Positions 4,614 to 28,192 are shown, numbered from the stretch's first letter. The stretch: 37,380 nt of DNA from a virus (IMGVR_UViG_3300035034_003439:1-37380); one strand, 5' to 3'. Made by a program: numbers and translations. The notes: generated by a model from the sequence alone, not told the origin.

Positions 4614-4621
4614 TATAAATA
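4614..4621 (-). promoter_or_regulatory. Candidate phage late promoter box TATTTATA
   Basis: TATTTATA on the minus strand, followed by TTAAAAG, ends 14 bases before the ATG at 4599. Orientation and spacing match the other boxes in this window. Confidence 0.55.
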
Positions 4622-4638
4622 TCTTAATTTAAAAAAAC

Positions 4639-6678
4639 TTAAAAATCTATTTCAAGTTGGAATGCTAAATATCTTGACAGATTCTTTTTAATAGGGAATG
4701 TTGGTTTTCCAACTCCTACTAAAACTCCGTTATTATTAAGTATTCCGACTTCTGTTATGTAAGTGTCCTGATCAAGCTCTGCATCAAAACTTGAGTTCAA
4801 TGAATTATTAAACTCAGAGTCTGGAGCTGTTACTGTCATTACAGACTTATAAGTAGTAGCTAATATAGTTGTTTTCACATTTCCAAAGAAAAACGCCTCA
4901 TTACCAAAAGTAAGGCCATAATCATCTATGTTGTTATTGTCATGGAATGTTGAGTCAAGCGTGTATGTAGACCCGCTATTAATATCCTCTTGAGATATGA
5001 TAAACTGAAATCCTGCTAAATTATTTGGGTCAATCGTGGAACTGCTAGTATCTCCAGTGTATAGACCATTACCAGTTGTTCCAGAAGAAACTTTAACCCA
5101 CCCATCAGTTGGTATGGTATCAAGGTCTACTTTTGGATAATAAGCCAAGTTTACTTTATTAACAAGTAATTGAACTTTATTAGCGTTCCACCCTGTCCCA
5201 GATAAAGATGACATGTTAGCCGAGTTTCTAAGGTAAGGAAATGATGAACTATTAAAGTAAGCTCTTAAATACTGTGGATTTCCAGAAGAGTCTTCAGCTC
5301 CATCAATTCTTTGAATATATTGACACGGTAATGCGTCTGGGTATCCATAAGAAGACCCTGAAGAATATGTGTCATCACTTTCTGTGATATAAGTCACAAA
5401 ATAGCTATAACCACTCTGTAGAACTCCAGTAGCTGTATTTGTATCAAGAGGCGATTTTGGAACGACAGTTGATTCAACAGTTAAAGGCGGGAGTGTGTAC
5501 GATCTATTTGATTTATATGTTAATGCAGTCAATAACTCTGGGTCTGTAATCACCATAATCTTAAGCTTATGATAAACTCTACCTACAATTGTGTCTTTTT
5601 CAGAATTACCATCCCTTAAATATCTATAAGAAGTTTGTGCAATTGAATCAAAATTAGTAGACCCAGCAGAATCTGATAACTTAATACCATAACTTGTAGC
5701 GGAACCAGCATTTCCTGGGTATTTGTGCCACATTACATTTGGTATATCTATCTCGACAGTTCTTTCAACAAGCTGCTCTGCATATGTATTTCCAGTAAAT
5801 TCATTTGTATAGTGAACAACTCCAAGCTGTCTTGTTTCGTCTTTGAATCCAAGATATTGCTTTGTTCCATTATATTCTATAGAACCGTAAGTATTGTATC
5901 CACTAATAGATGAATTTGTACCTTCTACCGAACTTGTTCTTATGATGTTCATATTCCACACCCTTGTATTAACAGTGGATGCCGAACCATAATACTCTTC
6001 AACTCCATTAAATGGATAAGAGTAGGTGTTAATTATTTGAGATGACGTTGTTCCTGTTCCGCCAAAGTTTGGAACCTCTCTATCAAGAGTAACAACTGAA
6101 GTACCTATATCAGCTGTCATAACTCTATACCAAAGATTATTGAAAGATGAACCAGAGTCAATTGATGTTGTTCCTGATGTATAAGTAAATCCACTAGCTT
6201 GAATTGGTTGCCAAGGAATATAGATAAGCTCTCCAGCATTAGGGATATGTCCAGTACCACCACCCGCAATTGTAATCTCATTAGTTCCATCTGGAGTATA
6301 TGTAGAGTAATCTATTGTATTGCTCCCAATGTACTCGCCCATATCAATTGCCCACTCATTTGTGCTACCAGTAAAAAATCCAGTAGAATTTGTAGCAGCG
6401 GTTACGATCTGCTTAGCTGAACCTACAGTTATAGGAAATGCGTTGGACCCATCAAAACTTGTTTGGGCAGAAAACCCTGGCTGAGAATCTTTAGGACTCA
6501 AAACTCTATTACAACAACCTATATCGTAAGTACCAGTCCTATCAATGCCATAGTTAATCTCTCTATCAGAGAGGATGACGTTATTAAACGTAAGCTGTCC
6601 GAGTGACAACAACTGTCTCCCAGCATCAGTAAGCTTAATATTGATGAACGTAGTTGGCTCTTTTGGTAAATAACTCAT
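4639..6678 (-). CDS. Large tail/baseplate appendage protein
   Basis: The 679-residue protein has an N-terminal module (KLTDAGRQLLSLGQLTFNN, then LSDREINY) shared with the 153-residue neighbour. Its C-terminal module (YITEVGILNNNGVLVGVGK ... LEIDF) is shared with the 378-residue protein at 2419-3555. The long middle is Ser/Thr/Gly/Tyr-rich and lacks catalytic motifs, like a beta-rich fibre or receptor-contact region. This protein carries both modules, while its neighbours carry one each, which suggests domain shuffling within the cluster. It is the first gene of the leftward appendage operon, with a TATTTATA box 13 bases upstream of its ATG. The receptor-contact role is an inference. Confidence 0.65.
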   Translation of the reverse strand: MSYLPKEPTTFINIKLTDAGRQLLSLGQLTFNNVILSDREINYGIDRTGTYDIGCCNRVLSPKDSQPGFSAQTSFDGSNAFPITVGSAKQIVTAATNSTGFFTGSTNEWAIDMGEYIGSNTIDYSTYTPDGTNEITIAGGGTGHIPNAGELIYIPWQPIQASGFTYTSGTTSIDSGSSFNNLWYRVMTADIGTSVVTLDREVPNFGGTGTTSSQIINTYSYPFNGVEEYYGSASTVNTRVWNMNIIRTSSVEGTNSSISGYNTYGSIEYNGTKQYLGFKDETRQLGVVHYTNEFTGNTYAEQLVERTVEIDIPNVMWHKYPGNAGSATSYGIKLSDSAGSTNFDSIAQTSYRYLRDGNSEKDTIVGRVYHKLKIMVITDPELLTALTYKSNRSYTLPPLTVESTVVPKSPLDTNTATGVLQSGYSYFVTYITESDDTYSSGSSYGYPDALPCQYIQRIDGAEDSSGNPQYLRAYFNSSSFPYLRNSANMSSLSGTGWNANKVQLLVNKVNLAYYPKVDLDTIPTDGWVKVSSGTTGNGLYTGDTSSSTIDPNNLAGFQFIISQEDINSGSTYTLDSTFHDNNNIDDYGLTFGNEAFFFGNVKTTILATTYKSVMTVTAPDSEFNNSLNSSFDAELDQDTYITEVGILNNNGVLVGVGKPTFPIKKNLSRYLAFQLEIDF

Positions 6679-6691
6679 CTGAATGTTTTCA

Positions 6692-6699
6692 TATAAATA
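6692..6699 (-). promoter_or_regulatory. Candidate phage late promoter box TATTTATA
   Basis: Minus-strand TATTTATA followed by TGAAAAC, 13 bases before the ATG at 6678. Read on the plus strand the same bases are TATAAATA, the T4 late box, but that would leave about a 100-base leader for the rightward gene. Confidence 0.55.
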
Positions 6700-6791
6700 G
6701 ACTGATAAAATTTATTTAATTATCATCCTAAAATAAATAGTTTTAGCATAAAAAGAATTTTCACATTTACATTCGAAAACTTTTTAGTTAA

Positions 6792-6799
6792 TATTTATT
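6792..6799 (+). promoter_or_regulatory. Candidate phage late promoter box TATTTATT
   Basis: Plus-strand TATTTATT followed by TAAAAAG, 12 bases before the ATG at 6812; one base differs from the common box. Confidence 0.45.
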
Positions 6800-6811
6800 T
6801 AAAAAGCGTAT

Positions 6812-9289
6812 ATGTCAACACCCGCACAAACAGCAAATACCATATCTTTAGCATTCAGCCCAGGAGAAGAAATCCTATTCGCCCCTACGGGTTCAGAATC
6901 TATATTTACATTTGGTGATTATAGGGTGGAAAGAGATGGTGGACCAGATATATTAACAGGAACATCTCTTGGCTTACAATTTACACCATTCTCAACGCTT
7001 AATAACTTGGGCTCATCAGGGTTTAGTCCTGACTTTTCAGTTTCGGTACAAAACAATGAGCTTAAGCCAGTAAAACAAGAGCCTTATAGTTATGCTTACT
7101 TTGGTTCTTTTTATACCGAAGTTGCAAAATCTATCAACAACGTTCTTGACACCTTTCCCTACGCAGCACTTGCTTATGATAACATGGATGGCGATACCAT
7201 TATAGACTATAGCCAATCTTACAACAATACAACTGGAGAGAAGTTATCTACATTTAAAGTTCCTGGGAATGTGATCACTAATCAAGGTTTTATAATGTTT
7301 GGCTCTGGCTCTCCAGTTAGCGAAACATCAAGCTTAATGACAAATACCAATAAGTTTGAAATTCAGTTAAGTGGTGCTACCACAGCAAAAACAACTTCTT
7401 ATAAAATAAAATCATACTCATTCACAGGAGGTTCGACAAACTTACTTGAATTTCAAATATATGGACATTTATTTGATGGGGCTGTAGAAAGTTATAGCGG
7501 ACAAACTACAAGTAGGTTGCCACTATACATAAGGCCATCAAGAAAAAGAATGACTGAGTACAACAGGAAGTTGTCAAGAATGCAAAAACAATTACTGGGT
7601 TCTGGGTTGCTAGATATTCCAGATGTTGATGATGAAAGAACTACGTGGACATATAGAGTTCCTTGGCCAAGAACTATTGATGGGTTTAATCCAGATACCA
7701 GGGGTGCTAACTTTGAAACCTATAAAGCAAATATACTATCACTTGCGGAGAATGTTGATACTGACAAGACCAATATCATGCTTAAGACTATGTTGCCAGA
7801 CAACTATCTTGAGTTTGACTCTGAAGATGAGATATATAAAAAACTAACCTCTTCATATGCAAAACAGTTTGATGAGATCAAGCAGTTTATTGATAATATG
7901 TCATACGCACATACTATAAGTTATAACGAGGAGGAGAATGTTCCTGACAAATTTCTTGTAAAACTAAGTAAATTGTTTGGCTGGAAGTTGTCTAGTACAT
8001 TTAACCAAATAGATTTATTTGAGTATCTAGCAAACGACGAAGACCTTGAAGGGAATCAATTTGCATACTATAACATAGAGTTGTGGAAAAGGATTTTGAT
8101 CAACATAAATTGGTTGTATAAAAGGAAGGGTACAAGAGATGCGCTTCAATTTATATTCAAACTAATGGGAGCTCCAGATTGTTTGGTTGTGTTTAATGAG
8201 TTTGTTTATGAGATAGAAAAATCAGTACAGTCAAGCAACAATAATCTACCAGCCCCTGTACTACCTCCAAATAGCGGAAAGGTGAACTCAAGAGGTTATC
8301 CAAATTATCCGTGGAGTAGTTTAGAGTTTCAAGAGGGAGGAGTAGGAAGAGGAACTGGGCAGGCTTATATAAATCAATGGTCTCCTGAGTTTAATCCTTT
8401 TAAGAAGGTTGATAATGTAAAAGTTCAAGTTGGAGATACTGGGTTTACAGGGAGTGAAAATATAATGAACACAAAAGAAGTGTGTGCTACTCTTGACCCA
8501 GCCAACGCAATAGAATGTAATGTATTTGAATGGTATCAATTAAGTGGTACTTGTTGGGTTTGGGGTAGTCTTGCTCCGCCGTTTAGCGCTAACACAGTTC
8601 CTTTTGAATATACCATAGATAATTGTGATTTCGTTGCTCCAGAAAAAATAACTGGAATGACATTAAATGATTATATGGAGTTTATCTATAAGTCTAATAT
8701 TGACCCAAGAAATAGAAAGACTAATGATCAAGGGCATACTTCATTTACATATCCTGAGTTAAAGAAAATTTACTTAAATTATTACTTACTTTCTCAGCCC
8801 AAGTCAAATATGTTGACAATTAAAAAGCTTGAGGCTTTTCTGGATTTAATGGAGGTTAACTTCCAGGACTACTTACTTCAGCTAATACCTGCAACTACAA
8901 TACTTGAGTGTCAGGGCACGACTTATAGAAATACTGTATTTCATAGACAAAGATTTGTATATAAAGAGGGTATAAATAAAGGTTCTGAATTTCAGAACGG
9001 ACTTCCACCTAACTTAAGGCCAGGGCTTACTCCTGTTAAAGTTGGAACGGGGGTTGATGATTTTTATAAAGCTGAGGTTAATCCAATTGTAATTAATTCT
9101 GATGTTAGCCAGGGGATAAGGTCTTCAGTCAATGCGGTAAAAATACAAGGAAATATTAACGTAAACAATTTGGCAGCTGGGGTTAACGGGTTTGACGTTT
9201 CTGGTGTAATTGAAGTGCCTGTTACTCAAATTACTTTAGTGCCAAATTCGGTTCCAATAAATATATCAACTCCAATAAATATTATATAA
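6812..9289 (+). CDS. Large baseplate/tail protein with P2 gpI-like segment
   Basis: The 825-residue protein has a helical middle (about residues 300-460) reminiscent of the P2 gpI tail protein family. That family joins the baseplate periphery to tail fibres. The clearest sign is WLYKRKGTRDALQFIFKLMG at 434-453, where the family typically has a Lys-Gly-Thr-x-x-Ala-Leu stretch before a short helix. The N-terminal 240 residues and the part after 470 are Gly/Ser/Asn/Pro-rich and beta-like. It starts a three-gene rightward block that lies against the otherwise leftward cluster. The ATG follows an A-rich, SD-less leader with a TATTTATT box. Location in the baseplate or fibre attachment region is likely; the exact T4 counterpart is unclear. 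Confidence 0.65.
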   Translation: MSTPAQTANTISLAFSPGEEILFAPTGSESIFTFGDYRVERDGGPDILTGTSLGLQFTPFSTLNNLGSSGFSPDFSVSVQNNELKPVKQEPYSYAYFGSFYTEVAKSINNVLDTFPYAALAYDNMDGDTIIDYSQSYNNTTGEKLSTFKVPGNVITNQGFIMFGSGSPVSETSSLMTNTNKFEIQLSGATTAKTTSYKIKSYSFTGGSTNLLEFQIYGHLFDGAVESYSGQTTSRLPLYIRPSRKRMTEYNRKLSRMQKQLLGSGLLDIPDVDDERTTWTYRVPWPRTIDGFNPDTRGANFETYKANILSLAENVDTDKTNIMLKTMLPDNYLEFDSEDEIYKKLTSSYAKQFDEIKQFIDNMSYAHTISYNEEENVPDKFLVKLSKLFGWKLSSTFNQIDLFEYLANDEDLEGNQFAYYNIELWKRILININWLYKRKGTRDALQFIFKLMGAPDCLVVFNEFVYEIEKSVQSSNNNLPAPVLPPNSGKVNSRGYPNYPWSSLEFQEGGVGRGTGQAYINQWSPEFNPFKKVDNVKVQVGDTGFTGSENIMNTKEVCATLDPANAIECNVFEWYQLSGTCWVWGSLAPPFSANTVPFEYTIDNCDFVAPEKITGMTLNDYMEFIYKSNIDPRNRKTNDQGHTSFTYPELKKIYLNYYLLSQPKSNMLTIKKLEAFLDLMEVNFQDYLLQLIPATTILECQGTTYRNTVFHRQRFVYKEGINKGSEFQNGLPPNLRPGLTPVKVGTGVDDFYKAEVNPIVINSDVSQGIRSSVNAVKIQGNINVNNLAAGVNGFDVSGVIEVPVTQITLVPNSVPINISTPINII

Positions 9290-9299
9290 ATAGCAAAGA

Positions 9300-11009
9300 A
9301 TGATAATAAACGAGTCCATACAGCAAACTACAGGAGATAATGATAGTGTAATTCAGGGGTTTTACCAAAATGTGTTTATACAATACAGTGAAGTCTCTAT
9401 TACGCCAAGCATATTTAATGTTCCTACTTACACAACAGTAGGGGGGACAAGAGATTATTATGGACAGAATCCTCTTGCTATTTTTACAAATCTAGTAAAT
9501 CCTTTTATAAGGTTTAATTTTAGCGCAAACACTGATAGCTTTGGAGAAGATGTTGAGATAATTCATGACATATACAGAGTTGATTGGGATAGTTATAAAT
9601 TAGCTACAGAAAAATTAAAATTAGATGGTGAAGAAAACGTCAGAAAGCAAAACACTACAACAGAAACAATAGAGGAAGTTGATCAAGATGGAAATGTTAC
9701 GACAAAGACCATTACAAGAAATGTGTCAGAGTCTGAAAACATAGTAAGAGCTACAAATGAATATGAAAAAAATGATTTTAACCCAAATTCTAATGACCAA
9801 ATAGTACGCCCTGATCAAGGAGTTGGCGGAGGCAATATGATAGAGCAGATGAGAGCTTCTTATAGAGATACTATTCAAGAGCAGCTATCTGAACCACTAT
9901 TAAGCGTAACGGCAAGTACTACAGGTATAACTACTAATATATACGACTTTATACCAGATCAGTACACAAAGAAAAGTGGAGAAAGAAAAACTGAATTATT
10001 TCAAGACCGCTCTCAATATGTTGTAGATACAAGGTTTAAATTTATTACCAATTCTACTGATCTTAAGGATTTCAAAACAATTAATGAAGATGGGGAGGTT
10101 GTAGAAGCTGAATATGATGCTATTAAAACTGGAATTACCACCACTCCTGAGACTACTATAAATAAAGGAGAATTTGAAGGTCTTTCTTTGGTAAATGCTG
10201 AATACTTTACATACTTTAGAGTTCCAGATAAACCTCAATTTGAATACCCTACTCCAACTGGTCAAATAAACACTTTTACTCCAGAGATATATTGGACAAA
10301 TGGAGAAAATGATATTGATGAATATTTAGTACAGGTTACATACAACACTGGAGACACTGCTTTTACTGGGAGTGTATTTTCATATGTTGTACCAAGAATT
10401 GACGAATTTAAGCAAGAAGCTGTTAACAGAACTAAATCATCTACTTCTGAGTTTGAAACGTCAAAAACAATTAGAAAATATCAACTATATCTAAAATCTA
10501 ACAAATGCCTTCTATATAGAGTTGGTAACGTTAAGACTATAACCAATATATTTGGAGTCAAGCAAAATGTAGTTACTTTTTCTGATTACAAAGAAATATG
10601 TACTCAGCCAGAGCCTATAATAACTGGTGTTTATTCAGAAAATGATAGTCCTTGGATGGAAGGAATATCTGGTCTTGGACGTCCACCTTCTCTTATTGCA
10701 GAAAGCCCTCTTGAAGAGTATGTGCTTAGTGGTGTAGTTTCTGGCTCTACAGTAACTGGAGCTACAATGCAACTTGTATACCCTAATGGAAGCTTTGCAA
10801 CAGAGCCTACGACATCTATAGGTGAATTTGACTTCGGAAGCCTTGAAGCTGGTGCATACACCCTTAATACTACGTATAGAGGTTATGCGGTTGATAGTAG
10901 GAGCATAAATATAACTGGAGATACAGGTGTGTTTATAAATCTTAAGATCAGGTGGGATAATGAATTTGATATATGGGCCGTGAAAGAAAACGATATAATT
11001 AAATATTAA
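9300..11009 (+). CDS. Virion protein with C-terminal carboxypeptidase-regulatory-like domain
   Basis: The 569-residue protein is mostly hydrophilic and beta-rich. Around residues 100-150 there is a Thr/Glu-rich charged stretch (ETIEEVDQDGNVTTKTI). The last about 100 residues have the pattern of a carboxypeptidase-regulatory/transthyretin-like beta-sandwich: YVLSGVVSGSTVTGATMQL, then IGEFDFGSLEAGAYTLNTTY and a final beta-strand pair. Such domains are common add-ons in phage tail proteins and may stabilise the structure or bind glycans. The gene starts 10 bases after the preceding stop and 29 bases before the fibre gene. It is probably a fibre or baseplate-connector protein; no specific family was recognised. 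Confidence 0.6.
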   Translation: MIINESIQQTTGDNDSVIQGFYQNVFIQYSEVSITPSIFNVPTYTTVGGTRDYYGQNPLAIFTNLVNPFIRFNFSANTDSFGEDVEIIHDIYRVDWDSYKLATEKLKLDGEENVRKQNTTTETIEEVDQDGNVTTKTITRNVSESENIVRATNEYEKNDFNPNSNDQIVRPDQGVGGGNMIEQMRASYRDTIQEQLSEPLLSVTASTTGITTNIYDFIPDQYTKKSGERKTELFQDRSQYVVDTRFKFITNSTDLKDFKTINEDGEVVEAEYDAIKTGITTTPETTINKGEFEGLSLVNAEYFTYFRVPDKPQFEYPTPTGQINTFTPEIYWTNGENDIDEYLVQVTYNTGDTAFTGSVFSYVVPRIDEFKQEAVNRTKSSTSEFETSKTIRKYQLYLKSNKCLLYRVGNVKTITNIFGVKQNVVTFSDYKEICTQPEPIITGVYSENDSPWMEGISGLGRPPSLIAESPLEEYVLSGVVSGSTVTGATMQLVYPNGSFATEPTTSIGEFDFGSLEAGAYTLNTTYRGYAVDSRSINITGDTGVFINLKIRWDNEFDIWAVKENDIIKY

Positions 11010-11015
11010 ACTAAC

Positions 11016-11023
11016 TATTTATA
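11016..11023 (+). promoter_or_regulatory. Candidate phage late promoter box TATTTATA
   Basis: Plus-strand TATTTATA followed by ATAAAATA, 15 bases before the ATG at 11039 in the 29-base gap after the preceding stop. It could give the fibre gene its own transcript. Confidence 0.55.
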
Positions 11024-11038
11024 ATAAAATAATCAAAA

Positions 11039-12211
11039 ATGACTGGAGAATTAATACCTACTGGCGTTACCTTTGGAACAGGTAGAAAGTCTATAAACGA
11101 ATCATTTAGCGGAACTGCTAACTTTAACAACGTATCTCTTGATTCGGGTGGTAATTTTTCAGGCGGAACTGGAGGGGGTATTTTATACTCAGGAGGAACT
11201 GATCTTTACAATATATTTGCAACAGAAGATACTAGTGATATTACTCGTGTTCAGTCGGGGGCAAACATAACTACTGGAGGAACAGCTAATGAACCAATCA
11301 TAGGACTTGTAGACTCTCCTTCTATTAATGGGTTATCTGCTTCAGGTACATCTAATTTCACGGGAGCAATCCAATCTGGAGGAACTGATCTTTATAGCAT
11401 ATTTTTAACAACTGCAGATGGAAATGACATCACAAGAGTTCAGCCAGGAACAAACATAACGACTGGAGGAACTGCTAATGACCCAGTTGTGAGCCTTGTC
11501 GATTCACCAGCATTTGATAATATGACATTTTCTGGAGTAGCAAGTGGAGGTGATATATATGCTTCAAACTTAACTGGAGAGACTATATACTCAGGAGCTT
11601 CTGAAATGTCTGACGTAATAAAATCATTATCTGGAACTTCTGGAAACCTTTGGTCAGCATCTACTGGAAGTGGTTCTATAATTCAAAACAACAATACTGG
11701 AAATTTAGCAGAAGGTGATGGCTCTTTTTCATGTGGAAGTGGGAATACCATAACTTCTTTAAACCCTTCAAGATTTTGCGCTATACTAGGAGGTGTAAAT
11801 AATAATATAATATACAATAATACACAGTTTAGCGACTATCCTGCTAATGCAATTGTGGGAGGTATTAATAACTTAATAGGAGGCACTGCATTTTTTGAAT
11901 TTAATTATTCTGCAATAATAGGGGGTGTAAAAAACACAGTTGTTGCAAATAGATCAGTAATATTAGGAGGAACTGGTAATACAATTAATGGGTTTGTAAA
12001 TAATTCTGTAATATTAGGTGGAGAAAACATATCCTTAGGTAGCAGTAATACAGCTGGTATGCAGAGAGGTTACATTGATGAGTTTATAGATTTAAACCCA
12101 CAAACCACTCCTCCATCACCAGCTCAAGGTAGAATGTTCTTTTCTGGAGGCTCTCTTAATAGAATGATGTACAACTCAGGTGGTACTTCTGCTGATTGGG
12201 TTATAATGTAA
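11039..12211 (+). CDS. Tail fibre with tandem modules and YadA-like beta-roll repeats
   Basis: The 390-residue protein is very rich in Gly, Ser, Thr and Asn. Residues 50-95 and 112-156 are two copies of one module (SGGTDLY ... DITRVQ ... NITTGGTAN ... LVDSP) with a 62-residue period. Residues 248-330 carry about five copies of a short motif, (A/S)x(I/V)(I/L/V)GGxxNxI. This is the pattern of the left-handed beta-roll head repeats of YadA-type trimeric adhesins, so the protein is probably a trimeric fibre. The end (SPAQGRMFFSGGSLNRMMY) resembles C-termini of marine phage fibres. It is the last gene of the rightward block, and its stop lies 2 bases from the stop of the convergent minus-strand gene. 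Host receptor binding is inferred. Confidence 0.75.
   Translation: MTGELIPTGVTFGTGRKSINESFSGTANFNNVSLDSGGNFSGGTGGGILYSGGTDLYNIFATEDTSDITRVQSGANITTGGTANEPIIGLVDSPSINGLSASGTSNFTGAIQSGGTDLYSIFLTTADGNDITRVQPGTNITTGGTANDPVVSLVDSPAFDNMTFSGVASGGDIYASNLTGETIYSGASEMSDVIKSLSGTSGNLWSASTGSGSIIQNNNTGNLAEGDGSFSCGSGNTITSLNPSRFCAILGGVNNNIIYNNTQFSDYPANAIVGGINNLIGGTAFFEFNYSAIIGGVKNTVVANRSVILGGTGNTINGFVNNSVILGGENISLGSSNTAGMQRGYIDEFIDLNPQTTPPSPAQGRMFFSGGSLNRMMYNSGGTSADWVIM
11186..11323 (+). repeat. Fibre module repeat, copy 1
   Basis: Codes for residues 50-95 of the fibre protein. The DNA is clearly similar to copy 2, including GGAGGAACTGATCTTTA and ACTGGAGGAAC, so this is a recognisable duplication with an offset of about 186 bases. 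Confidence 0.75.
11372..11506 (+). repeat. Fibre module repeat, copy 2
   Basis: Codes for residues 112-156. It shares the SGGTDLY, DITRVQ and NITTGGTAN blocks with copy 1; differences are concentrated in the short stretch between SGGTDLY and DITRVQ. Confidence 0.75.
11780..12030 (+). repeat. Beta-roll repeats in the fibre gene
   Basis: Codes for about five copies of the GGxxN repeat: CAILGGVNNNI, NAIVGGINNLI, SAIIGGVKNTV, SVILGGTGNTI and SVILGGENISL. Spacing is irregular (about 14-26 residues), with variable loops between strands. Confidence 0.75.
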
Positions 12212-12213
12212 TT

Positions 12214-13089: not shown

Positions 13090-13105
13090 AATATCTTTTG
13101 TTTAA

Positions 13106-13113
13106 TATAAATA
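13106..13113 (-). promoter_or_regulatory. Candidate phage late promoter box TATTTATA
   Basis: Minus-strand TATTTATA followed by TTAAACAAAAG, 16 bases before the ATG at 13089. The 19 bases of box plus downstream sequence are identical to those before the gp25-like gene at 22435. Confidence 0.65.
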
Positions 13114-14794: not shown

Positions 14795-14802
14795 TATAAA
14801 TA
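14795..14802 (-). promoter_or_regulatory. TATTTATA box abutting a start codon
   Basis: Minus-strand TATTTATA with only ATAT between it and the ATG at 14790. The sequence matches the late box but the spacing does not, hence low confidence as a functional promoter. Confidence 0.3.
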
Positions 14803-20035: not shown

Positions 20036-20048
20036 TAAACCTTTATTT

Positions 20049-20056
20049 TAAATATA
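20049..20056 (-). promoter_or_regulatory. Possible late promoter box variant TATATTTA
   Basis: Minus-strand TATATTTA followed by AAATAAAG, 13 bases before the ATG at 20035. The spacing fits the other boxes, but the sequence is a rearranged variant of TATTTATA. Confidence 0.35.
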
Positions 20057-20062
20057 GAAAAA

Positions 20063-20099
20063 GAAAAATCTGAGATAAATAGTTAAACTCAGATTTTTC
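20063..20099 (-). terminator. Strong intrinsic terminator between wedge genes
   Basis: A perfect 12-bp stem (GAAAAATCTGAG with CTCAGATTTTTC) has a 13-base loop. On the minus strand it runs into TTTTTC; on the plus strand it is followed by eight T residues, so it could act in both directions. It lies between the gp6-like gene (ends 20125) and the 1056-residue gene. The minus-strand loop contains TATTTAT. Confidence 0.85.
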
Positions 20100-20124
20100 G
20101 TTTTTTTTAATATGTATCTGAAGC

Positions 20125-22020
20125 TTATATAGCTGAAGATGTGTTAGGAACTCCAGAAGCCGTTCTAATAAGAATGTCTTTTTCTGGAAATCTCACTTGA
20201 AACATTGAGACAGGAGTTCCTTGTATTGCGTTGTCTATATATCCAAATCTAGTTCTAAAAGCTCCTGTGTTTGGATTCTGAGTTCTCTCGAAAGTAGCTT
20301 GCGAATGTCTTGTGTTTGAATACTGGCCACCTTCCATGTTATAAAACCTAATGTCCACAACATTTATAACTCCAGGTATGTCTCTTAGCATGTCTGTAAT
20401 GTGGGATACATAAATATTTTGATTCATCTGCCATTTCTCAACATCAAAAAAGCTAGTTATCTCACTTATAGCCTGAGACTTAACTTCACTCACATTAAAA
20501 GTCTTATCAACAAACATATCAACTTCAACCTGAATGTCCACAACCTTTCCATCATTCACTTCCACAAAATCGTTTACCATTCTATAAGGAACAAGAAATC
20601 TTTGAATATTTTGTTTTATTATACTTGTGGACACATCAAGAATTTTACCTGCACCATCTCTTGTGAGTATATACATCTTAACTTTGTTATCCTCAACCTT
20701 TCCAAACGCTCTAAATGGAGAACCAAATCTACCAGGCATTTGAAATGCTCTAGCAACGTAATCATCAAGAGTAACTGCTCTTTGCTGTGAAGCAAAGTTA
20801 GAGGCTATATAACTTTTAATCTCTTCAACACTTGGAAGCCCAACTCCTCCAATAGCAGGGATTGGGTTGTTGACTCTTGTTGAAGATTCTACATTCTGAA
20901 CCAACTGAGCATTTGCTCCAAGAGATTGACTTCTAATATTAGAAACTTCATTAAGAGTGTTTGAACCTACATTACTAAGAGGTCCTCCTCCTGCTCTATA
21001 TTTAATGAATATAGTAGAGTTAAGTGGAACCTGAACTCCTAGAGCTGTGTTGTTAAGAATCTCAGAAACATCAAGAGCGCTTGAATCGGGGCATTTTGCA
21101 GAGTTTGTCAACCCATCAATATAAGCTTCATATGCATCGTAATCAGCTACTCCACCCCCAAACGTAAGTCTACAAGAACCGTCTGACATAAAATCCTTTT
21201 CAAACCTTTGTTCAACTTCAACGTATCTACCACTTTTAACGCCATTTACATCATTTACTGTATCATCGTCAAGAAATACTTTATCTGTAGGGAGTGCGTC
21301 AACTTCATAAAACTTTAGATCAAAATCATTAAATTCAGCAAAAGTGGGAGTTCTTTGTACTCCGAGGCTATTTAAAACAATTACATCAGTAACTTCAAGC
21401 ACATTCCTATCTGGTAGGTCTACTTGATAGAATGGTTTGGCTTGATTTGCGGGAACTTCTACTTTAAAAATCTTAGTTACACCAGCTTTTATCTTTTCTC
21501 TTTTTATTATTCTATACCTTACAAGGTCCTGATTACCGTTTAGAATTGGCTCAATTGTTCTGTTAGCAAATCCATCAGCACTAAAGTCGCTTGAGAAATC
21601 TATTTCATTAGTTGTTTCAAAACTTTGTCCAGCACCCCTAACTCTCATTCCAGGTCTGTAAACTGGTAGATAACTTTCATCTGGACCATCTGCTGTAGGC
21701 GGAACCTCTATGATCACATCAGCAACAGTTACCGCTGGCCTAACTCCAGGTGGTTTATATCCAAAAGTCTTAGCAAGTCTATACACAGACCTTCTGTCAT
21801 TAACCCCATCAATAAAAAGCTCATTGTATTTCTTGTCAGTAGCATAAGAAAGCAAATCGCCGACATAGGCATTAAGTTCAAGTAATGCCATACCAGGAGA
21901 TGCAACATTAAAATCTTGCCATTGCTCTGGAAAGAATGTTTTCAAATAATTAATGAGATCACCTCTTATAGAATTGAAGTCCCTGCTTAAATAATTTACC
22001 TTAACTGTCTTTTGTGCCAT
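20125..22020 (-). CDS. 6: Baseplate wedge protein, T4 gp6-like (baseplate J family)
   Basis: The 631-residue protein (T4 gp6 is about 660) starts with the conserved gp6 pattern: NYLSRDFNSIRGDLINYLK, then SPGMALLELNAYVGDLLSYA and RRSVYRLAKTFGYKPPG. The C-terminal region (WQMNQNIYVSHITDMLRDIP, then VVDIRFYN) is also typical of baseplate J/gp6 proteins. In T4, gp6 dimers form the ring that joins the wedges around the hub and drive the sheath-contraction switch. The gene is 10 bases downstream of the gp25-like gene and is followed by a strong terminator, so gp25 and gp6 form one short transcription unit. Confidence 0.92.
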   Translation of the reverse strand: MAQKTVKVNYLSRDFNSIRGDLINYLKTFFPEQWQDFNVASPGMALLELNAYVGDLLSYATDKKYNELFIDGVNDRRSVYRLAKTFGYKPPGVRPAVTVADVIIEVPPTADGPDESYLPVYRPGMRVRGAGQSFETTNEIDFSSDFSADGFANRTIEPILNGNQDLVRYRIIKREKIKAGVTKIFKVEVPANQAKPFYQVDLPDRNVLEVTDVIVLNSLGVQRTPTFAEFNDFDLKFYEVDALPTDKVFLDDDTVNDVNGVKSGRYVEVEQRFEKDFMSDGSCRLTFGGGVADYDAYEAYIDGLTNSAKCPDSSALDVSEILNNTALGVQVPLNSTIFIKYRAGGGPLSNVGSNTLNEVSNIRSQSLGANAQLVQNVESSTRVNNPIPAIGGVGLPSVEEIKSYIASNFASQQRAVTLDDYVARAFQMPGRFGSPFRAFGKVEDNKVKMYILTRDGAGKILDVSTSIIKQNIQRFLVPYRMVNDFVEVNDGKVVDIQVEVDMFVDKTFNVSEVKSQAISEITSFFDVEKWQMNQNIYVSHITDMLRDIPGVINVVDIRFYNMEGGQYSNTRHSQATFERTQNPNTGAFRTRFGYIDNAIQGTPVSMFQVRFPEKDILIRTASGVPNTSSAI

Positions 22021-22030
22021 TTTTTAACTA

Positions 22031-22435
22031 TTAAATATTATTGAACGATTCGTTGCTTGGCTCCACTGGGACTACTACATTAACTTCGTCTTGAATGTTT
22101 CCAAGTTCTACTATTTTGTATATTATTTTTACCTCAAGAAGATTTTCTTGTTCTGTAAAAGTAAATATGATGTTATCAACATCAACTTGCGGAATATACT
22201 CACCGATTTTTTCTATCAAATCCTCCCTAAGTCTCGATTCTGATATATCGTCCCAAGGCTCAAATATATAATCCCACAAAGGAGAGTAAAAATTACTTCT
22301 CATAACTCTATTCCTCCTTTTAGTTGTCAAAAGAGAAATCAAGTTTGTCTGTATAGACTCTATTGTAGTGTTGTTAGGGAAAAACACACCACCTTGAGAA
22401 GTCTCTTTAAACGGGAATTTAATACTAATTGCCAT
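22031..22435 (-). CDS. 25: Baseplate wedge protein, T4 gp25-like
   Basis: The 134-residue protein (T4 gp25 is 132) belongs to the gpW/gp25 family, which sits in the wedge core with gp6 and gp7 and contacts the sheath. Diagnostic segments are TTKRRNRVMRSNFYSPLWDY (37-56), followed by IFEPWDD, and the downstream helix LREDLIEKIGEYIPQVDVDN. A TATTTATA box lies 17 bases before the ATG. The gene heads the leftward wedge block, with a terminator upstream blocking antisense transcription from the convergent region. Confidence 0.93.
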   Translation of the reverse strand: MAISIKFPFKETSQGGVFFPNNTTIESIQTNLISLLTTKRRNRVMRSNFYSPLWDYIFEPWDDISESRLREDLIEKIGEYIPQVDVDNIIFTFTEQENLLEVKIIYKIVELGNIQDEVNVVVPVEPSNESFNNI

Positions 22436-22452
22436 ATAACACTTTTGTTTAA

Positions 22453-22460
22453 TATAAATA
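22453..22460 (-). promoter_or_regulatory. Candidate phage late promoter box TATTTATA (leftward)
   Basis: Minus-strand TATTTATA followed by TTAAACAAAAG, 17 bases before the gp25-like ATG. The 19 bases of box plus downstream sequence are identical to those before the gene at 13089. Confidence 0.65.
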
Positions 22461-22465
22461 TGAAG

Positions 22466-22495
22466 ACAAAAAAAATAAAGGCCCGAACAAGGCCT
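22466..22495 (-). terminator. Probable minus-strand terminator
   Basis: A GC stem AGGCC/GGCCT with a 7-base loop is followed on the minus strand by TTTATTTTTTTT. No minus-strand gene ends nearby except the amidohydrolase gene far upstream (24284). The hairpin therefore probably stops antisense read-through across the plus-strand gene before the gp25 promoter. Confidence 0.6.
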
Positions 22496-22513
22496 AAAAA
22501 AGAAATATATGAG

Positions 22514-22521
22514 TATTTATA
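22514..22521 (+). promoter_or_regulatory. Candidate phage late promoter box TATTTATA (rightward)
   Basis: Plus-strand TATTTATA followed by AGAAAACAG, 12 bases before the ATG at 22534. With the leftward box at 22453-22460 it forms a divergent pair, which fixes TATTTATA as the sense orientation on both strands. Confidence 0.65.
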
Positions 22522-22533
22522 AGAAAACAGTCT

Positions 22534-24297
22534 ATGGGAATCTTTAGGATATATCCATCTAAATCAAATACAATAGCAAGCGGAGTTTATCAAAACTTTA
22601 ACTCTGGGCAAAATGCTGTAACTGATCTTTGGTACGGAGGAGGCGGAACTGACACAGCTCTTGAAAGGAGGAGGTCTGTTAGTAGGTTTATTGTCGACTT
22701 TGATCTTACAGAGCTTATTCAGAAGCTTTCAGAGAAAGAAATTAATAGCGATCTTGTAACTTCTTATAGACTTAAAATGAAAAATGCCATTCCAGGAGAT
22801 AGAATACTGGAGCCTGAGTATGAGTTTGATGTTCTTGAAAAGAAAATAGCTGCATCATTTGATCTTATTGCATTCCCTATAAATAAAGACTGGGATGAGG
22901 GAAGAGGTTACGACCTATTTCAAGAGAATTATCTTGTAAAACAAAGAGGGAACCCATTATTTAGCGGTTACTCAAATTGGAACTCAGCTACTCAAACATC
23001 CAACTGGAGTGAGCCTGGTGTTTACACAGACCCAACTGGTTCTACATTTTCAGGTTCGGCCATAGAAAGTGGTATGACCTTTCAAACAGCTTCTAAGCAT
23101 ACAGGATTAAATTCTCCTACTAACTTTGGGTTTATAACTTCAGCATCCACAATATCTGCTACAACAGCTGTATCAGCAACTACTATAGGAAATGATGTAT
23201 TTGTTTCATACAACCCGTTAAGTGGTGCAGTTTCTACACAAGATTGGTATAATTCGATATTATCCACTTCTTTTAGTGGGTTTGGAATTAATGTATCTGG
23301 ATTTAGTGCCACCACATTTATAGGAACAGGCCTAACTCAGTTTTATTTATCTGCGAACACTGCTGTAGATAACATTGACTTCTATTCTACTCAACACTTT
23401 GACATAGGAGATGAGGATATTGATATGGACATTACAGATATTGTTAATGACTGGCTTAGTGGAGGCAGTCAAAACAACGGCATTGGAATAGCTTACAGAA
23501 GGGATTATGAGCTAATGAACACTGATACAAGGTTTATATCATCTTTCTTCACAGAAGACACTAACTCGTCTAATAAGCCGTATATAGAAGTTGTTTATGA
23601 TCAATCTTTTAAAGATGATAGACTTCAGGTTTCAAACAACAGAACATCAAGATTATTCCTATACACATTCAGCGGAAATAATGCTGTAAACTACTCTCCT
23701 ACATCAAATGTAACTGTTGATATACAAACAATGGCGGGAACAAATGTGATTACTGGCCTTACTCCTACTCACCTCGAAAAAGGCGTTTATTACGTTGATG
23801 TGCTAATGAGTGCAGCTACTCGTGGAGAACAGTATAAAGATGTGTGGAAGGATATAACATTTGTTCCTGGAGTGGACCAGCAAGATATAACTCAAATATT
23901 CACAATAAGAGATAATTACTACACCAGTAACGTCCCTCAAGTAAATGAATACTCAATATCTGTTTATGGAATTGGAAATAACTCAATAATATCACTAGAT
24001 GAGACTCACAAAGTGTTTGTTGATCTAAGAGTAAATTACAGTAGTAGAAACCAACCAAAAACTGCATACGATCTTAAGTATAGGATTGTAATGAATTCTC
24101 AGGAAGAAGTAGTTCCGTGGACCTCTATAAACCAAGCTGTAATAAACAGGTGTAAAACAAATTATATTACACTTGAAACTGGGTGGTTACTTCATAACCA
24201 AACATATAGGATAGAGTTTAGAGTAGATGAATTTGGAACAAAAAGAGTTTTGCCAGAAACATTAACATTCAAGACGCTAAGGTCTAGTGAGTTTTAA
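22534..24297 (+). CDS. Virion structural protein, DNRLRE-like
   Basis: The 587-residue protein has two features of the DNRLRE-type beta-sandwich seen in phage and surface proteins. The first is an N-terminal segment ending in RRRSVSRFIVDFDLTEL. The second is a later stretch, MDITDIVNDWLSGG, followed by GIGIAYRRDYE. Between them is a Ser/Thr/Gly-rich insert (about residues 130-280) that looks like a repetitive, exposed beta region. The C-terminal third is again beta-rich. It is alone on the plus strand between two minus-strand structural blocks, has its own TATTTATA box, and overlaps the end of the convergent amidohydrolase gene by 14 bases. A tail or fibre component is likely. Confidence 0.6.
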   Translation: MGIFRIYPSKSNTIASGVYQNFNSGQNAVTDLWYGGGGTDTALERRRSVSRFIVDFDLTELIQKLSEKEINSDLVTSYRLKMKNAIPGDRILEPEYEFDVLEKKIAASFDLIAFPINKDWDEGRGYDLFQENYLVKQRGNPLFSGYSNWNSATQTSNWSEPGVYTDPTGSTFSGSAIESGMTFQTASKHTGLNSPTNFGFITSASTISATTAVSATTIGNDVFVSYNPLSGAVSTQDWYNSILSTSFSGFGINVSGFSATTFIGTGLTQFYLSANTAVDNIDFYSTQHFDIGDEDIDMDITDIVNDWLSGGSQNNGIGIAYRRDYELMNTDTRFISSFFTEDTNSSNKPYIEVVYDQSFKDDRLQVSNNRTSRLFLYTFSGNNAVNYSPTSNVTVDIQTMAGTNVITGLTPTHLEKGVYYVDVLMSAATRGEQYKDVWKDITFVPGVDQQDITQIFTIRDNYYTSNVPQVNEYSISVYGIGNNSIISLDETHKVFVDLRVNYSSRNQPKTAYDLKYRIVMNSQEEVVPWTSINQAVINRCKTNYITLETGWLLHNQTYRIEFRVDEFGTKRVLPETLTFKTLRSSEF

Positions 24298-24766
24298 TAT
24301 GACTTAAGATCATATCCAACCCTTCCATTGAAGCGAGATAAATGTTTCTACCTCTCGTATCGTGGTATCTAAGTTTTTCACAAAAAGTGCCTTCTGGGGT
24401 AGATATAGCAACATATATTGTACCTGGAGGGTTTTTTTCTGTTCCATAACCAGCTACATCTGCGTATCCAGTACTAGCTATTGAGTATTGAGTTCCCATT
24501 AATTCTTTAACTTTATTAGCCATATCACAAGCTACTTCAGCACTTACTTCTGTATACTCCTTAATAAGTTCAGAATCAACTCCTAATACATTTTTCTTAG
24601 CGTTAATGCTATATACCACCGCTGAACCTTCAAAATAATTAGAACTGCCTGGTATAGAAGTTAAGAGTCCGCTAATATAACCAGAAGTACAACTTTCTGC
24701 TGTTGATATTTTAGCACCTCTCTCCTCAAGAGCAGCTTTAATGGAATCAATGATGTTAACGTGCAT
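24284..24766 (-). CDS. pncC: CinA C-terminal/PncC-type nicotinamide-nucleotide amidohydrolase
   Basis: The 160-residue protein matches the stand-alone CinA/PncC domain. This enzyme deamidates nicotinamide mononucleotide to nicotinate mononucleotide in pyridine-nucleotide recycling. Motifs are TAESCTSGYISGLLTSIPGS (22-41, with the presumed catalytic Ser25), YFEGSAVVYSINAKKNVLGV (44-63, with the conserved Tyr-Ser-x-x-Ala-Lys), SIASTGYADVAG and PPGTIYVAIS. The glycine normally after ESCT is Ser here (ESCTSG). A longer frame from a TTG at 24784 is possible, but that TTG lies inside the promoter-like TATATTTG, so the ATG at 24766 is preferred. It is a metabolic gene inside the structural region, with a host-type promoter and a convergent overlap with its neighbour. 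Confidence 0.87.
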   Translation of the reverse strand: MHVNIIDSIKAALEERGAKISTAESCTSGYISGLLTSIPGSSNYFEGSAVVYSINAKKNVLGVDSELIKEYTEVSAEVACDMANKVKELMGTQYSIASTGYADVAGYGTEKNPPGTIYVAISTPEGTFCEKLRYHDTRGRNIYLASMEGLDMILSHIKTH

Positions 24767-24781
24767 AGTTGTTTGTTTTTG

Positions 24782-24789
24782 CAAATATA
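24782..24789 (-). promoter_or_regulatory. Host-type -7 promoter element TATATTTG
   Basis: Minus-strand TATATTTG fits TAnnTTTG of Bacteroidetes promoters exactly and ends 15 bases before the ATG at 24766, giving a leader of roughly 10 bases. A TTTG lies 12 bases further upstream, closer than the usual -33 spacing. Confidence 0.5.
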
Positions 24790-24810
24790 CTATTTTTAGT
24801 GCAAATAATA

Positions 24811-25794
24811 TTAATTAATCCTTATGTGATTAGAAATTATTTTTTGAAGCTCTCCCTCAATAGTATAAGAAGAAAGTTGATCTGACTCTGGTATCGGAAC
24901 TAAAGACTTATGAGGAGTATGTATATGATTTAAAATAACCCTGATCATAATATCTAACAACTTTATTAACTCATCTCCAAAAACAGCTGGATGCAGTGCG
25001 CTCGCAACCCCGTCAAATGACTCAAGATCATCATTTACTTCAAAGTTAGCTATTCCTTCATCACGAAAAACACCTCTTGGTGAGTATAGGTTTATATTGG
25101 TTGAGGTTATATTTGCTTGGGAGTAGTTTGGGATTAGGTCATCATTCTCTTCGTTATCATTCTCTTTTTGTATGAGCTGAAGTTGTGATGGATAATCTTC
25201 ATTAATTTCCGTGGTACCTTTAACGAATTTACCTGCAGTTAAAAATACCTGTCTTGGCTTAAGCATAAGATCGGCATCATCCCTGCCTTGTATTGCTATG
25301 TCTCCTATTTTAGGAAATGTTGTACTAGTAGTAAGTTTACTATCTTTTTGAGCGTTTAAGTTAAAATCAGTATCCTTAAAGACTCTGTGAGCTTCATCAA
25401 AAGCTTGAAATCTTAGCTTAAATGGGGAATTTACTTGAGAGCCTAGATAATATCTTGGAGCTGAATTATCAGAAGGGTTTTCAAGAAATATGTAAACCAT
25501 CTCATCTACAAGCGGTATTATGTGAAAGTGGTTTGGAAACATGGGAACGCAAAATGGTAAATCCTCATCAAGTGTATTTCGATCTCTACCTCCACCAAAA
25601 TTTATAGCACCCTGCTCTCCAAGGTTGTTTGGGTCAATTATACGTGCAATTATCCTCTTCATACCAAGAGGGTCTTCGTTGCTAATTACAATGGCAGGAT
25701 ATATATTTCTTGCCGCTTGGTTACCTTCTGATGAGAGGCTGCCGCCAAGACCTTTGCCTCTAAGCGCTGCTTTTGCTAATTTATCTACTCCCAT
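24811..25794 (-). CDS. Baseplate hub/spike protein with gp5/gpV-like OB domain
   Basis: The 327-residue protein has an OB-fold-like section at about 30-125 (RIIARIIDPNNLG, then LPFCVPMFPNHFHIIPLVDE and YYLGSQVNSP). This is the pattern of the N-terminal domain of T4 gp5 and P2 gpV, which caps the tail tube and carries the membrane-piercing spike. The C-terminus has VILNHIHTPHKSL, similar to the His-rich 'HxHT' segment near the end of many hub/spike proteins. No lysozyme domain or long beta-helix repeats are present, unlike T4 gp5. It is first downstream of the 80-residue coiled-coil gene (1-base gap). Confidence 0.72.
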   Translation of the reverse strand: MGVDKLAKAALRGKGLGGSLSSEGNQAARNIYPAIVISNEDPLGMKRIIARIIDPNNLGEQGAINFGGGRDRNTLDEDLPFCVPMFPNHFHIIPLVDEMVYIFLENPSDNSAPRYYLGSQVNSPFKLRFQAFDEAHRVFKDTDFNLNAQKDSKLTTSTTFPKIGDIAIQGRDDADLMLKPRQVFLTAGKFVKGTTEINEDYPSQLQLIQKENDNEENDDLIPNYSQANITSTNINLYSPRGVFRDEGIANFEVNDDLESFDGVASALHPAVFGDELIKLLDIMIRVILNHIHTPHKSLVPIPESDQLSSYTIEGELQKIISNHIRIN

Positions 25795-25795
25795 A

Positions 25796-26038
25796 TTAAG
25801 ATTTTTTTATTTGTTCAAACAACTTAAGTTGATCTAGTTCAATTTTTTCATATTCAGTAAACAACTCTTCCACAAGAGCTATGCCTTCTGCGTGCTCTTG
25901 GCTAACTTTCTTTTCAGCCTTCTTATCAAGATCATCAAGAATAGATTCAATCAACTCTTTTTTGTAAGTCATTTGATCAGCCAAACCCTGAGCTTCTTTA
26001 ATGAGCTCGCTTTTTGTTTTTTTCTTTTCCTTATCCAT
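25796..26038 (-). CDS. Small coiled-coil protein (80 aa)
   Basis: The 80-residue, highly charged protein (MDKEKKKTKSELIKEAQGLA...) is predicted by eye to be almost entirely helical. Leu/Ile heptad-like spacing runs through ELIESILDDLDKKAEKK and LVEELFTEYEKIELDQLKL. It overlaps the upstream gene stop by one base and ends one base before the hub gene start, so all three are co-translated. It may be a tail-assembly or chaperone-like protein; no family was recognised. Confidence 0.55.
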   Translation of the reverse strand: MDKEKKKTKSELIKEAQGLADQMTYKKELIESILDDLDKKAEKKVSQEHAEGIALVEELFTEYEKIELDQLKLFEQIKKS

Positions 26039-26454
26039 TAACTTGCTATTCCAGATGCAGTGTGAGGTGCTGTGGTGGCTCCTACAGCAACAACAGGACC
26101 ACCTGCGTTAGCACCAGAAGCACTAACAATAGCTCCTGCGTCTGTAGCAATATCAATTCTCATATCACTTTGAATTGCTGATACAATTTCCTCACAAATT
26201 ACTTTAATCAAATTCTCCATAACATTAGGCGTACCACCAGCTAATGGGCCAGTAGGTATTCCAGCCTCCTCAAATCTTGAGGTTATGGAAGATGTTAGGA
26301 TTTGAGCATTAAGACCTGGCCTCGTCTTAGATAGTAATATTTGCTGAATACTTGGCTTAGGCACTGGTGCTCTATCCTCTTTAAGCATAAATAATAAAAA
26401 ATCAGCTACTTCTTCTGATTTCTGTAGTTCTGGGTCTATTCCTATAACTGCCAT
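26038..26454 (-). CDS. Small putative virion protein, Ala/Gly-rich C-terminus
   Basis: The 138-residue protein starts MAVIGIDPELQKSEEVADFL with helical segments. A hydrophobic Ala/Gly/Val-rich C-terminus (IVSASGANAGGPVVAVGATT) is reminiscent of other small tail or baseplate proteins. No enzymatic motif or confident membrane helix is present. It is one base from the coiled-coil gene and 2 bases from the 424-residue gene, within the hub operon. Function unknown. Confidence 0.5.
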   Translation of the reverse strand: MAVIGIDPELQKSEEVADFLLFMLKEDRAPVPKPSIQQILLSKTRPGLNAQILTSSITSRFEEAGIPTGPLAGGTPNVMENLIKVICEEIVSAIQSDMRIDIATDAGAIVSASGANAGGPVVAVGATTAPHTASGIAS

Positions 26455-26456
26455 AA

Positions 26457-27731
26457 TTAATTCGGTATTTGTCCAAGTATGCTAACAAGAGCTGCAGCTG
26501 CTGCAGCATATTTTGCAGCCTTACTTGCTGTGTCACTAACTCCTTTAAATATTTCAAATTTCTGCCTTAACTTCTCCACTCTCCTCCTTTGCTTTTCAAT
26601 AGCTGTTCTCGCAAAGTAATTAGCAACTAATCTTTTAAATTCTTTAACCGCCAAAACAAGCAAAAGCCTTAATAACTCTTTTAATAATGCGTTAGCAAGA
26701 CTTTTGAAGAACGACTGCTTCTCAACTGGGTTTTGTGATGAATCACCTGCTGTATCAGCTATGTCACAATTACTATAAGCTACGCTAGAAGCGTCAATCC
26801 CATTTCCAGCTGGAGTTGATTGTACTACTGAGAAAATAGGGCCAAGAAAAGGGAATAACAATGAAGACATATAGTTCAACATCTTGGTGATCAATATCTC
26901 ATTAAAACTTTTTCCAACAGAGTTAGAGTTTTGTTCATTATTAATATTTTGAGCCTGATTTTTTACATATTCCACTGCCAATTGAAGGCTTTGCGAAGGT
27001 GTAGGCAATTGACTTGATTGACTAAACTGACCACCGCCCTCAAAAAAGAATCCAGGCTCTTCAGGTAAAGTAATTTTTACATCCTGACAACTAACTTCGA
27101 ATACAACTTCTCCCTTTTCAAGCTGCTGCCTTAGAGCAATCCTATTGTACTCTACATTTTCTTCTTTTACTATTGGGTCACTTGATATGCTGAATAAGTT
27201 TACTCCGCAAACCGCTTCCTCTACAAGCCTATCTCTTTCTGATGGGTCACTATTTAAAGATTCAGATGGTCCATTTTTTGGGCCAAATATCATTATAACC
27301 AAATTCTTTGCGATCTGCTGTTTAACAGCCTGCAAGAAAGTTGCAGGAACTACGCCTCTTAAATAAAGCTTATTTGATTCTTTGTAATCACTTTTTTGAT
27401 TTTCTGTAGCATTCGGATTATTTGTATTAGGTAGCTGTATCCCTTTTTCTCCAAGAGAATCAGCAACAGCGTCTAAAACCTTTTCTTCAAGAAATGTTCC
27501 AGCCTGATCAAAAATCTTGTCTAAGAATAAGTTAAACACAATCTCTGGCTCAACACCAAGAGCTCTCAATACCTTAATCAAATAATCATAAGTTGATATT
27601 TGATCTTCTTTTGGGATATTAAGGTTCGTGTCAATATCTATTGACAACAAGCTCTTCATTGACCCTATCTTTGAGGTCAACTCGGCTTGCGCTTCAGTTA
27701 GTGGTGATGATACTGGAATCTGTAATGCCAT
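26457..27731 (-). CDS. Tail/baseplate-associated protein (424 aa), unknown family
   Basis: The 424-residue protein has a helical N-terminal part (SMKSLLSIDIDTNLNIPKED, then YDYLIKVLRALGVEPEIVFN). A Cys-containing middle (EEAVCGVNLFSI, VSCQDVKI, NCDIADTAG) could bind metal. The C-terminus is strongly basic and hydrophobic (LLKELLRLLLVLAVKEFKRL, then KQRRRVEKLRQKF) and ends in an Ala-rich helix. No N-terminal signal peptide is seen. Its position between the hub/spike gene and the 143-residue coiled-coil gene suggests a baseplate hub or tail-tip role; one alternative is a membrane-contacting ejection protein. The start overlaps the upstream stop by one base. Confidence 0.5.
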   Translation of the reverse strand: MALQIPVSSPLTEAQAELTSKIGSMKSLLSIDIDTNLNIPKEDQISTYDYLIKVLRALGVEPEIVFNLFLDKIFDQAGTFLEEKVLDAVADSLGEKGIQLPNTNNPNATENQKSDYKESNKLYLRGVVPATFLQAVKQQIAKNLVIMIFGPKNGPSESLNSDPSERDRLVEEAVCGVNLFSISSDPIVKEENVEYNRIALRQQLEKGEVVFEVSCQDVKITLPEEPGFFFEGGGQFSQSSQLPTPSQSLQLAVEYVKNQAQNINNEQNSNSVGKSFNEILITKMLNYMSSLLFPFLGPIFSVVQSTPAGNGIDASSVAYSNCDIADTAGDSSQNPVEKQSFFKSLANALLKELLRLLLVLAVKEFKRLVANYFARTAIEKQRRRVEKLRQKFEIFKGVSDTASKAAKYAAAAAALVSILGQIPN

Positions 27732-28162
27732 TACTCTTCGTATTTATCTTGTGCGTCTGAATCTGTTAAATCAGTGTCAACATCATCAATATCATCTACA
27801 TCTTCACCACTATCTTTTTTGACAGCATCAATTATAGCCCTTTTATCAAGGTCGTTGAAGTTTACGTCAATTGATGAATCTGCACCTTCTTTATATACAA
27901 TAGTTTTAATTTCTTTTGCAAGTGATGCTATTGAATCTGATGAGTCTGAGGCTTGTTTTAAGAATGATATAGCGTTCTTTCCCATTAGAATAAAGCTTTC
28001 TGCTGTATCCATTTGTTCATCAGCCCTTCTATATCTATCAAGAGCCATCTCTCTTTCCTCAAGTTTATACTTATAAACCTTTTGAATTAACTGCTCATAT
28101 AACTCTTTAGTAGGGTCCATGTTATCGCCCCCTCCAGAGTTTAAGTTTTGATTATCGTCCAT
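27731..28162 (-). CDS. Helical acidic protein, possibly terminase small subunit or assembly factor
   Basis: The 143-residue protein has a long helical centre (KYKLEEREMALDRYRRADEQ, then SFILMGKNAISFLKQASDSS) and a very acidic C-terminus (DVDDIDDVDTDLTDSD). Size and helical content would suit a gp16-like small terminase, but no specific motif was recognised and no large terminase is in the window, so this is only a suggestion. A TATTTATA box inside a palindrome lies 22 bases before the ATG. It is the first gene of the hub operon. Confidence 0.5.
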   Translation of the reverse strand: MDDNQNLNSGGGDNMDPTKELYEQLIQKVYKYKLEEREMALDRYRRADEQMDTAESFILMGKNAISFLKQASDSSDSIASLAKEIKTIVYKEGADSSIDVNFNDLDKRAIIDAVKKDSGEDVDDIDDVDTDLTDSDAQDKYEE

Positions 28163-28184
28163 TGTTAATCTTTTTAATTGTTTC

Positions 28185-28192
28185 TATAAATA
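28185..28192 (-). promoter_or_regulatory. Candidate phage late promoter box TATTTATA inside a palindrome
   Basis: Minus-strand TATTTATA followed by GAAAC, 22 bases before the ATG at 28162. The surrounding TTTCTATTTATAGAAA is a perfect 7-bp inverted repeat with a 2-base centre, so the box could form a small hairpin or present a symmetric site. Confidence 0.55.

Follow-up and report, generated by a model that had tools for sequence, protein, structure and literature searches.

The window, the whole 37,380-base virus record analysed here, comes from a bacterial virus that is a distant relative of phage T4. Its left end encodes SbcD, primase and RuvC, and it also carries a block of structural genes and, at the right end, a putative sigma factor gene and sugar genes. 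An 8-bp box, TATTTATA, recurs shortly before start codons. The features discussed below are:

4614-4621, minus strand: box TATTTATA, 14 nt upstream of 4599; orthologues of 70, 64 and 46% identity keep the box
6692-6699, minus strand: box TATTTATA, 13 nt upstream of 6678; orthologues of 81, 71 and 52% identity keep the box
6792-6799, plus strand: one-base variant TATTTATT, 12 nt upstream of 6812; the G001 orthologue has the exact TATTTATA
11016-11023, plus strand: box TATTTATA, 15 nt upstream of 11039
13106-13113, minus strand: box TATTTATA, 16 nt upstream of 13089; orthologues of 88 to 64% identity keep the box
14795-14802, minus strand: box TATTTATA, 4 nt upstream of 14790; leaderless mRNA predicted
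20125-22020, minus strand: gp6-like baseplate wedge gene, the query used to find relatives
22031-22435, minus strand: gp25-like baseplate wedge gene
22453-22460, minus strand: box TATTTATA, 17 nt upstream of the gp25-like gene (22435)
22514-22521, plus strand: box TATTTATA, 12 nt upstream of 22534, divergent from the putative gp25 promoter
28185-28192, minus strand: box TATTTATA, 22 nt upstream of 28162
28208-28579, minus strand: gene for a 123-aa protein related to the C-terminal domain of the putative sigma factor
28586-29500, minus strand: gene for a probable diverged gp55-like sigma factor, 304 aa; a longer ORF begins at 29653

Box positions in the window

Thirteen exact copies of TATTTATA occur on the two strands of the window, against 5.2 +/- 2.4 expected, and eight of them lie in sense orientation upstream of start codons, at 4, 12, 13, 14, 15, 16, 17 and 22 nt, before genes on both strands. 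The positional probability of finding at least eight of 13 there is about 3e-12, and 5,000 dinucleotide-preserving shuffles of the upstream regions contain the box 0.32 times on average and four times at most. The reverse complement is present once in the same zones, and the remaining five copies are inside coding sequence, where their number equals the chance expectation. All counts refer to exact matches of the 8-mer. A simple ORF caller supplied the start codons wherever a record was not annotated, and gene classes were taken from annotation and homology.

The repeated box before start codons is thus confirmed, and is stronger than first described. The original prediction had listed boxes before 4599, 6678, 11039, 13089, 22435, 22534 and 28162, all with exactly the right spacing, and the variant before 6812, but it overlooked the copy before 14790. 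It also gave 19 identical bases for the copies upstream of 13089 and 22435, which in fact share 20. The common sense orientation on both strands that it described is borne out, as is clustering at start codons rather than an even spread over coding and non-coding sequence.

Boxed genes account for 8 of the 22 genes in the structural block and 0 of the 12 elsewhere in the window (p = 0.018); neither the replication genes on the left nor the sigma and sugar genes on the right have a box. The exact box is also absent from some structural genes or operons. A GC hairpin with a T tract (minus strand, 22479-22495) separates the putative divergent promoters of gene 22534 and the gp25-like gene and lies immediately upstream of the gp25 box. 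A CinA-like gene within the structural block (24284-24766, minus strand) has a box of the host type, TATATTTG, 15 nt upstream of 24766.

Conservation in related phages

Searching with the gp6-like gene found relatives with 87 to 35% identity; among cultured phages, the Microcystis phage Mel-JY01 and the Flavobacterium phage immuto come closest. In all closer relatives with full flanks TATTTATA is sense-upstream of starts, and it is among the leading 8-mers in unbiased scans of the relatives; the same scan of T4, as a control, recovers the T4 late promoter TATAAATA. Orthologues with as little as about 37% protein identity still have the box upstream. Upstream of the gp25 orthologues, which range from 82 to about 37% (36-39%) identity, the eight letters of the box are constant and the flanks have diverged. 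Gene 14790 has the arrangement of box, 4 nt and ATG in seven sequences of 77 to 50% identity, in which the spacer letters vary and the protein N-termini align at the constant 4-nt spacing.

In immuto the box precedes the terminase, portal, tail sheath, tail tube and tape-measure genes, in agreement with the predicted late-type promoter before structural genes; several other immuto boxes precede genes without a known class. Immuto also has a repeated upstream motif, TTCGTATATTTAGGTATCAA, of about 10 copies that is distinct from the box. The 187-kb relative G001 has 22 of its 24 boxed genes at 28-135 kb, and a second motif, TTTCTTTATATG..., stands before 38 genes, none of them in this region and most of them short genes at 135-171 kb. 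The partition between box and second motif has p = 8e-15. This second motif, of the approximate form GTTTCTTTATATGTTTATAACCAATAAAA and missing from the structural region, is probably an early promoter.

The form of the box varies among more distant phages. It is CTATTTA(T/A) in G002 and TATTTAAA, again sense-upstream, in the Rhodothermus phage RM378. At most of 11 sites in RM378, TATTTAAA is followed by exactly 5 nt and the ATG, which suggests leaderless or nearly leaderless genes. Mel-JY01 has TATTTATA mostly 27-52 nt upstream of starts (14 sense versus 2 antisense), so that a 40-nt upstream zone shows no boxes and a 70-nt zone reveals them; their enrichment in the structural half is no more than suggestive (p = 0.07). 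LR756508 encodes a homologue of the putative sigma factor, but the 50 kb of it that were scanned have no box upstream of start codons.

A further set of 61 dereplicated loci (1.02 Mb) was picked by the sigma protein alone; these share ancestry and are not fully independent. Of their 273 TATTTATA copies, 122 are sense-upstream. The corresponding figure for the reverse complement is 35 of 273, and 8-mers of the same composition have a median of 16. The one-base-shifted word ATATTTAT, which belongs to the same motif, scores slightly higher (145). TATAAATA shows no comparable enrichment in sense orientation, and the box does not match the TATAAATA consensus.

Shine-Dalgarno signals are rare in the window, G001-G003 and immuto (3-6%), suggesting that their hosts lack such signals and are probably Bacteroidota; the window's own host may be one as well. 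Mel-JY01 uses Shine-Dalgarno sites (28%).

Architecture of the putative promoter

The box is an 8-bp AT element in sense orientation, and an AAA follows it at a fixed 2 nt in divergent phages. The AAA is more strongly anchored to the box than to the ATG, most clearly in G002, and at the pooled leadered sites of all these phages A makes up 89% of the fourth and 87% of the fifth nucleotide past the box. The distance between box and ATG, 3 to 34 nt, has a bimodal distribution: of 286 sites, 64 have 3-4 nt, 14 have 5-9 nt and 174 have 10-20 nt. In the short-spacing class the A of the ATG coincides with the fourth or fifth nucleotide past the box. Together, the bimodal spacing and the position of the AAA point to a transcription start 4-5 nt past the box, a distance deduced from these two features, and to some late mRNAs being leaderless. 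On the simplest reading, a gene has either no leader at all or one of about 5 nt or more. T4 has Shine-Dalgarno sites at 55% of starts, and its TATAAATA is found at 14-28 nt and never at 3-4 nt.

No consistent -35 motif appears in the box-anchored profiles, which contain only T-rich stretches in some phages. In the window clade and G001 such a stretch precedes the box by 7-14 nt; immuto and G002 lack it.

The putative sigma factor

The original prediction suggested a gp55-like sigma of altered specificity, and a gene that probably encodes such a protein lies within the window itself (28586-29500). Homologues are found in immuto, Mel-JY01, LR756508, G002 and RM378, and the immuto homologue, gp118, is annotated as hypothetical. 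Single-sequence searches of PHROG, Pfam and PDB with the window protein gave no useful match, so an alignment-based approach was needed. Pfam Sigma70_r2 matches 45 of the 72 family members (best 4e-5), and a protein with sigma region 2 is encoded in the window and in its relatives. The PHROG late-sigma (gp55) model has the sigma homologue as its sole match in immuto (E 0.008), and a profile comparison of the family with T4 gp55 aligns region 2 weakly (14% probability). Over roughly 100 residues the predicted model of the window protein (pLDDT 85.8) agrees with sigma domain 2 structures to about 3 A, and its top fold matches are almost all sigma factors. By all available signs, from sequence and from the model, the protein is gp55-like and likely a member of the gp55 family.

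The VIA alignments extend into the C-terminal part of sigma factors, but with an rmsd of 15-20 A, and a sigma-4 domain is not claimed. In the window clade the protein ends in an acidic-aromatic DDDFFTF, a possible counterpart of the C-terminal motif by which gp55 binds the sliding clamp; it is absent in G001. The 123-aa protein encoded just downstream of the sigma gene was considered as a free sigma-4 or gp33-like subunit, but no structure of either kind was a good match to its model; among the relatives checked it is clearly recognised only in the closest clade. Late transcription in T4 also involves the gp45 sliding clamp and the coactivator gp33 and depends on replication. A PF02916 search recognised no sliding clamp in these phages, and it is uninformative because it also missed the clamp of the cyanophage S-PM2 control.

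Alternative explanations

The box could instead be a promoter for the primary sigma factor of the host, whose -7 box in Bacteroidota is TAnnTTTG (PMC9723704). Its position is similar, its letters match in part (TA..T.T.), and the window also has host-type boxes, upstream of 1767 and 24766. However, TATTTATA lacks the TTTG end and has no consistent -33 element, the two boxes never precede the same gene in the window or G001, and TATTTATA is also present in Mel-JY01, which infects a cyanobacterium. We regard recognition by the host factor as unlikely. A role in translation initiation, as an AU-rich site for the ribosome or S1, would suit Bacteroidota, which use A/U-rich upstream signals in place of Shine-Dalgarno sites, and such sites are rare here. 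A ribosome-binding element is nevertheless hard to reconcile with the wide, bimodal spacing, with an AAA that tracks the box and not the ATG, and with the concentration of G001 boxes in the structural region; in Mel-JY01, moreover, the box lies upstream of the Shine-Dalgarno sites. This makes a translational role very improbable.

Since TATTTATA is the reverse complement of TATAAATA, the boxes might also be true T4-type promoters that face away from the genes, antisense or divergent. Yet their orientation tracks the gene on both strands, even between tandem genes on the same strand, the conserved AAA is on the gene side, and the spacing is tied to the ATG of that gene, so that outward-facing promoters are scarcely credible. 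There is next to no chance that the box is a base-composition effect of AT-rich intergenic DNA. Such DNA does increase the expected count, but the eight copies observed are twice the maximum in any shuffle, the same-composition words fall far below TATTTATA in the sigma-selected loci, and conservation of the box across divergent orthologues already refutes this explanation.

Proposed mechanism

The favoured interpretation, with a probability of roughly 0.8, is that TATTTATA is a -10-only late promoter read by the diverged gp55-like sigma factor encoded at 28586-29500. The promoter consensus would be TATTTATA-N2-AAA(A), lacking any conserved -35 element, and the phage-encoded sigma factor together with the host RNA polymerase would read the box in the sense direction. 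Transcription would begin at an A 4-5 nt past the box, so that the mRNA would be leaderless where the ATG is 3-4 nt past the box, as in gene 14790, or would otherwise have a short leader without a Shine-Dalgarno site. The boxed genes would be transcribed late in infection. The original prediction of a late-type promoter and a gp55-like sigma agrees with this mechanism, but it did not recognise that the AAA is anchored to the box, that some genes would be leaderless, or that the box is widely conserved in phages, a Flavobacterium isolate among them.

A broader proposal, to which we give slightly less than even odds, is that late transcription follows a separate branch in many T4-related phages, most of which infect hosts that lack Shine-Dalgarno initiation. 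The promoters of this large group would be TATTTATA-N2-AAA, its gp55-like sigma would carry an additional C-terminal domain (duplicated in some lineages as a separate small protein), the -9 pocket would be changed to match the -9 base, and some of the late genes would give leaderless mRNAs. If so, late genes and the late sigma could readily be called in hundreds of uncultured T4-related phages, and the group would be a natural experiment on how a minimal sigma changes its -10 specificity, with two bases altered, two pocket-held adenines kept and one shallow-pocket histidine lost. The leaderless late mRNAs predicted from the bimodal spacing are directly testable in the cultured phage immuto.

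Comparison with known promoters

The original prediction regarded the box as a T4 late promoter of reversed sense, but TATTTATA and TATAAATA have the same orientation and differ only in the two central bases (TAT[TT]ATA versus TAT[AA]ATA). That one is the reverse complement of the other is a by-product of this central change. In T4 numbering, where TATAAATA occupies -13 to -6, the window box has TT in place of AA at -10/-9 and retains A-12 and A-8. Both promoters consist of an 8-bp -10-like element without a -35 element, have AT-rich DNA downstream, and precede structural genes on both strands, and both phages have a sigma with a region-2 domain. Those of the window type differ in the fixed AAA at +3 to +5 past the box and in the leaderless class.

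T4 gp55 has deep pockets for A-12 and A-8 (Tyr97, Thr99), and its pocket for A-9 (Asn13, His95) is shallow (PMC7892883). The window sigma exceeds T4 gp55 in size, having an additional helical domain at the C-terminus, and does not keep His95, whose equivalent is Ser153 or Phe/Tyr152 in two plausible alignment registers. The Tyr97 equivalent is aromatic, and that of Thr99 is Thr157 or Gly156. Ser153 is invariant in an alignment of 14 members that were not selected by that pattern. We hypothesize that the changed -9 pocket pairs with the changed -9 base.

Among the papers searched, none describes a TATTTATA late promoter for any phage. Bacteroidota sigma-A promoters also combine a -10-region box with short leaders and no Shine-Dalgarno site, but their box has other letters and precedes other genes in the window. 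Immuto has the same sigma family and TATTTATA sense-upstream; RM378 shares the sigma family and differs in that TATTTAAA ends in AAA and is nearly fixed 5 nt before the ATG. Drift of the late consensus is known in the T4 family, with CTAAATA in Aeh1 and A/T at -13 in RB49, KVP40 and S-PM2 (PMC1524935, PMC2988020). Those variants change -13/-12, whereas TATTTATA changes -10/-9.
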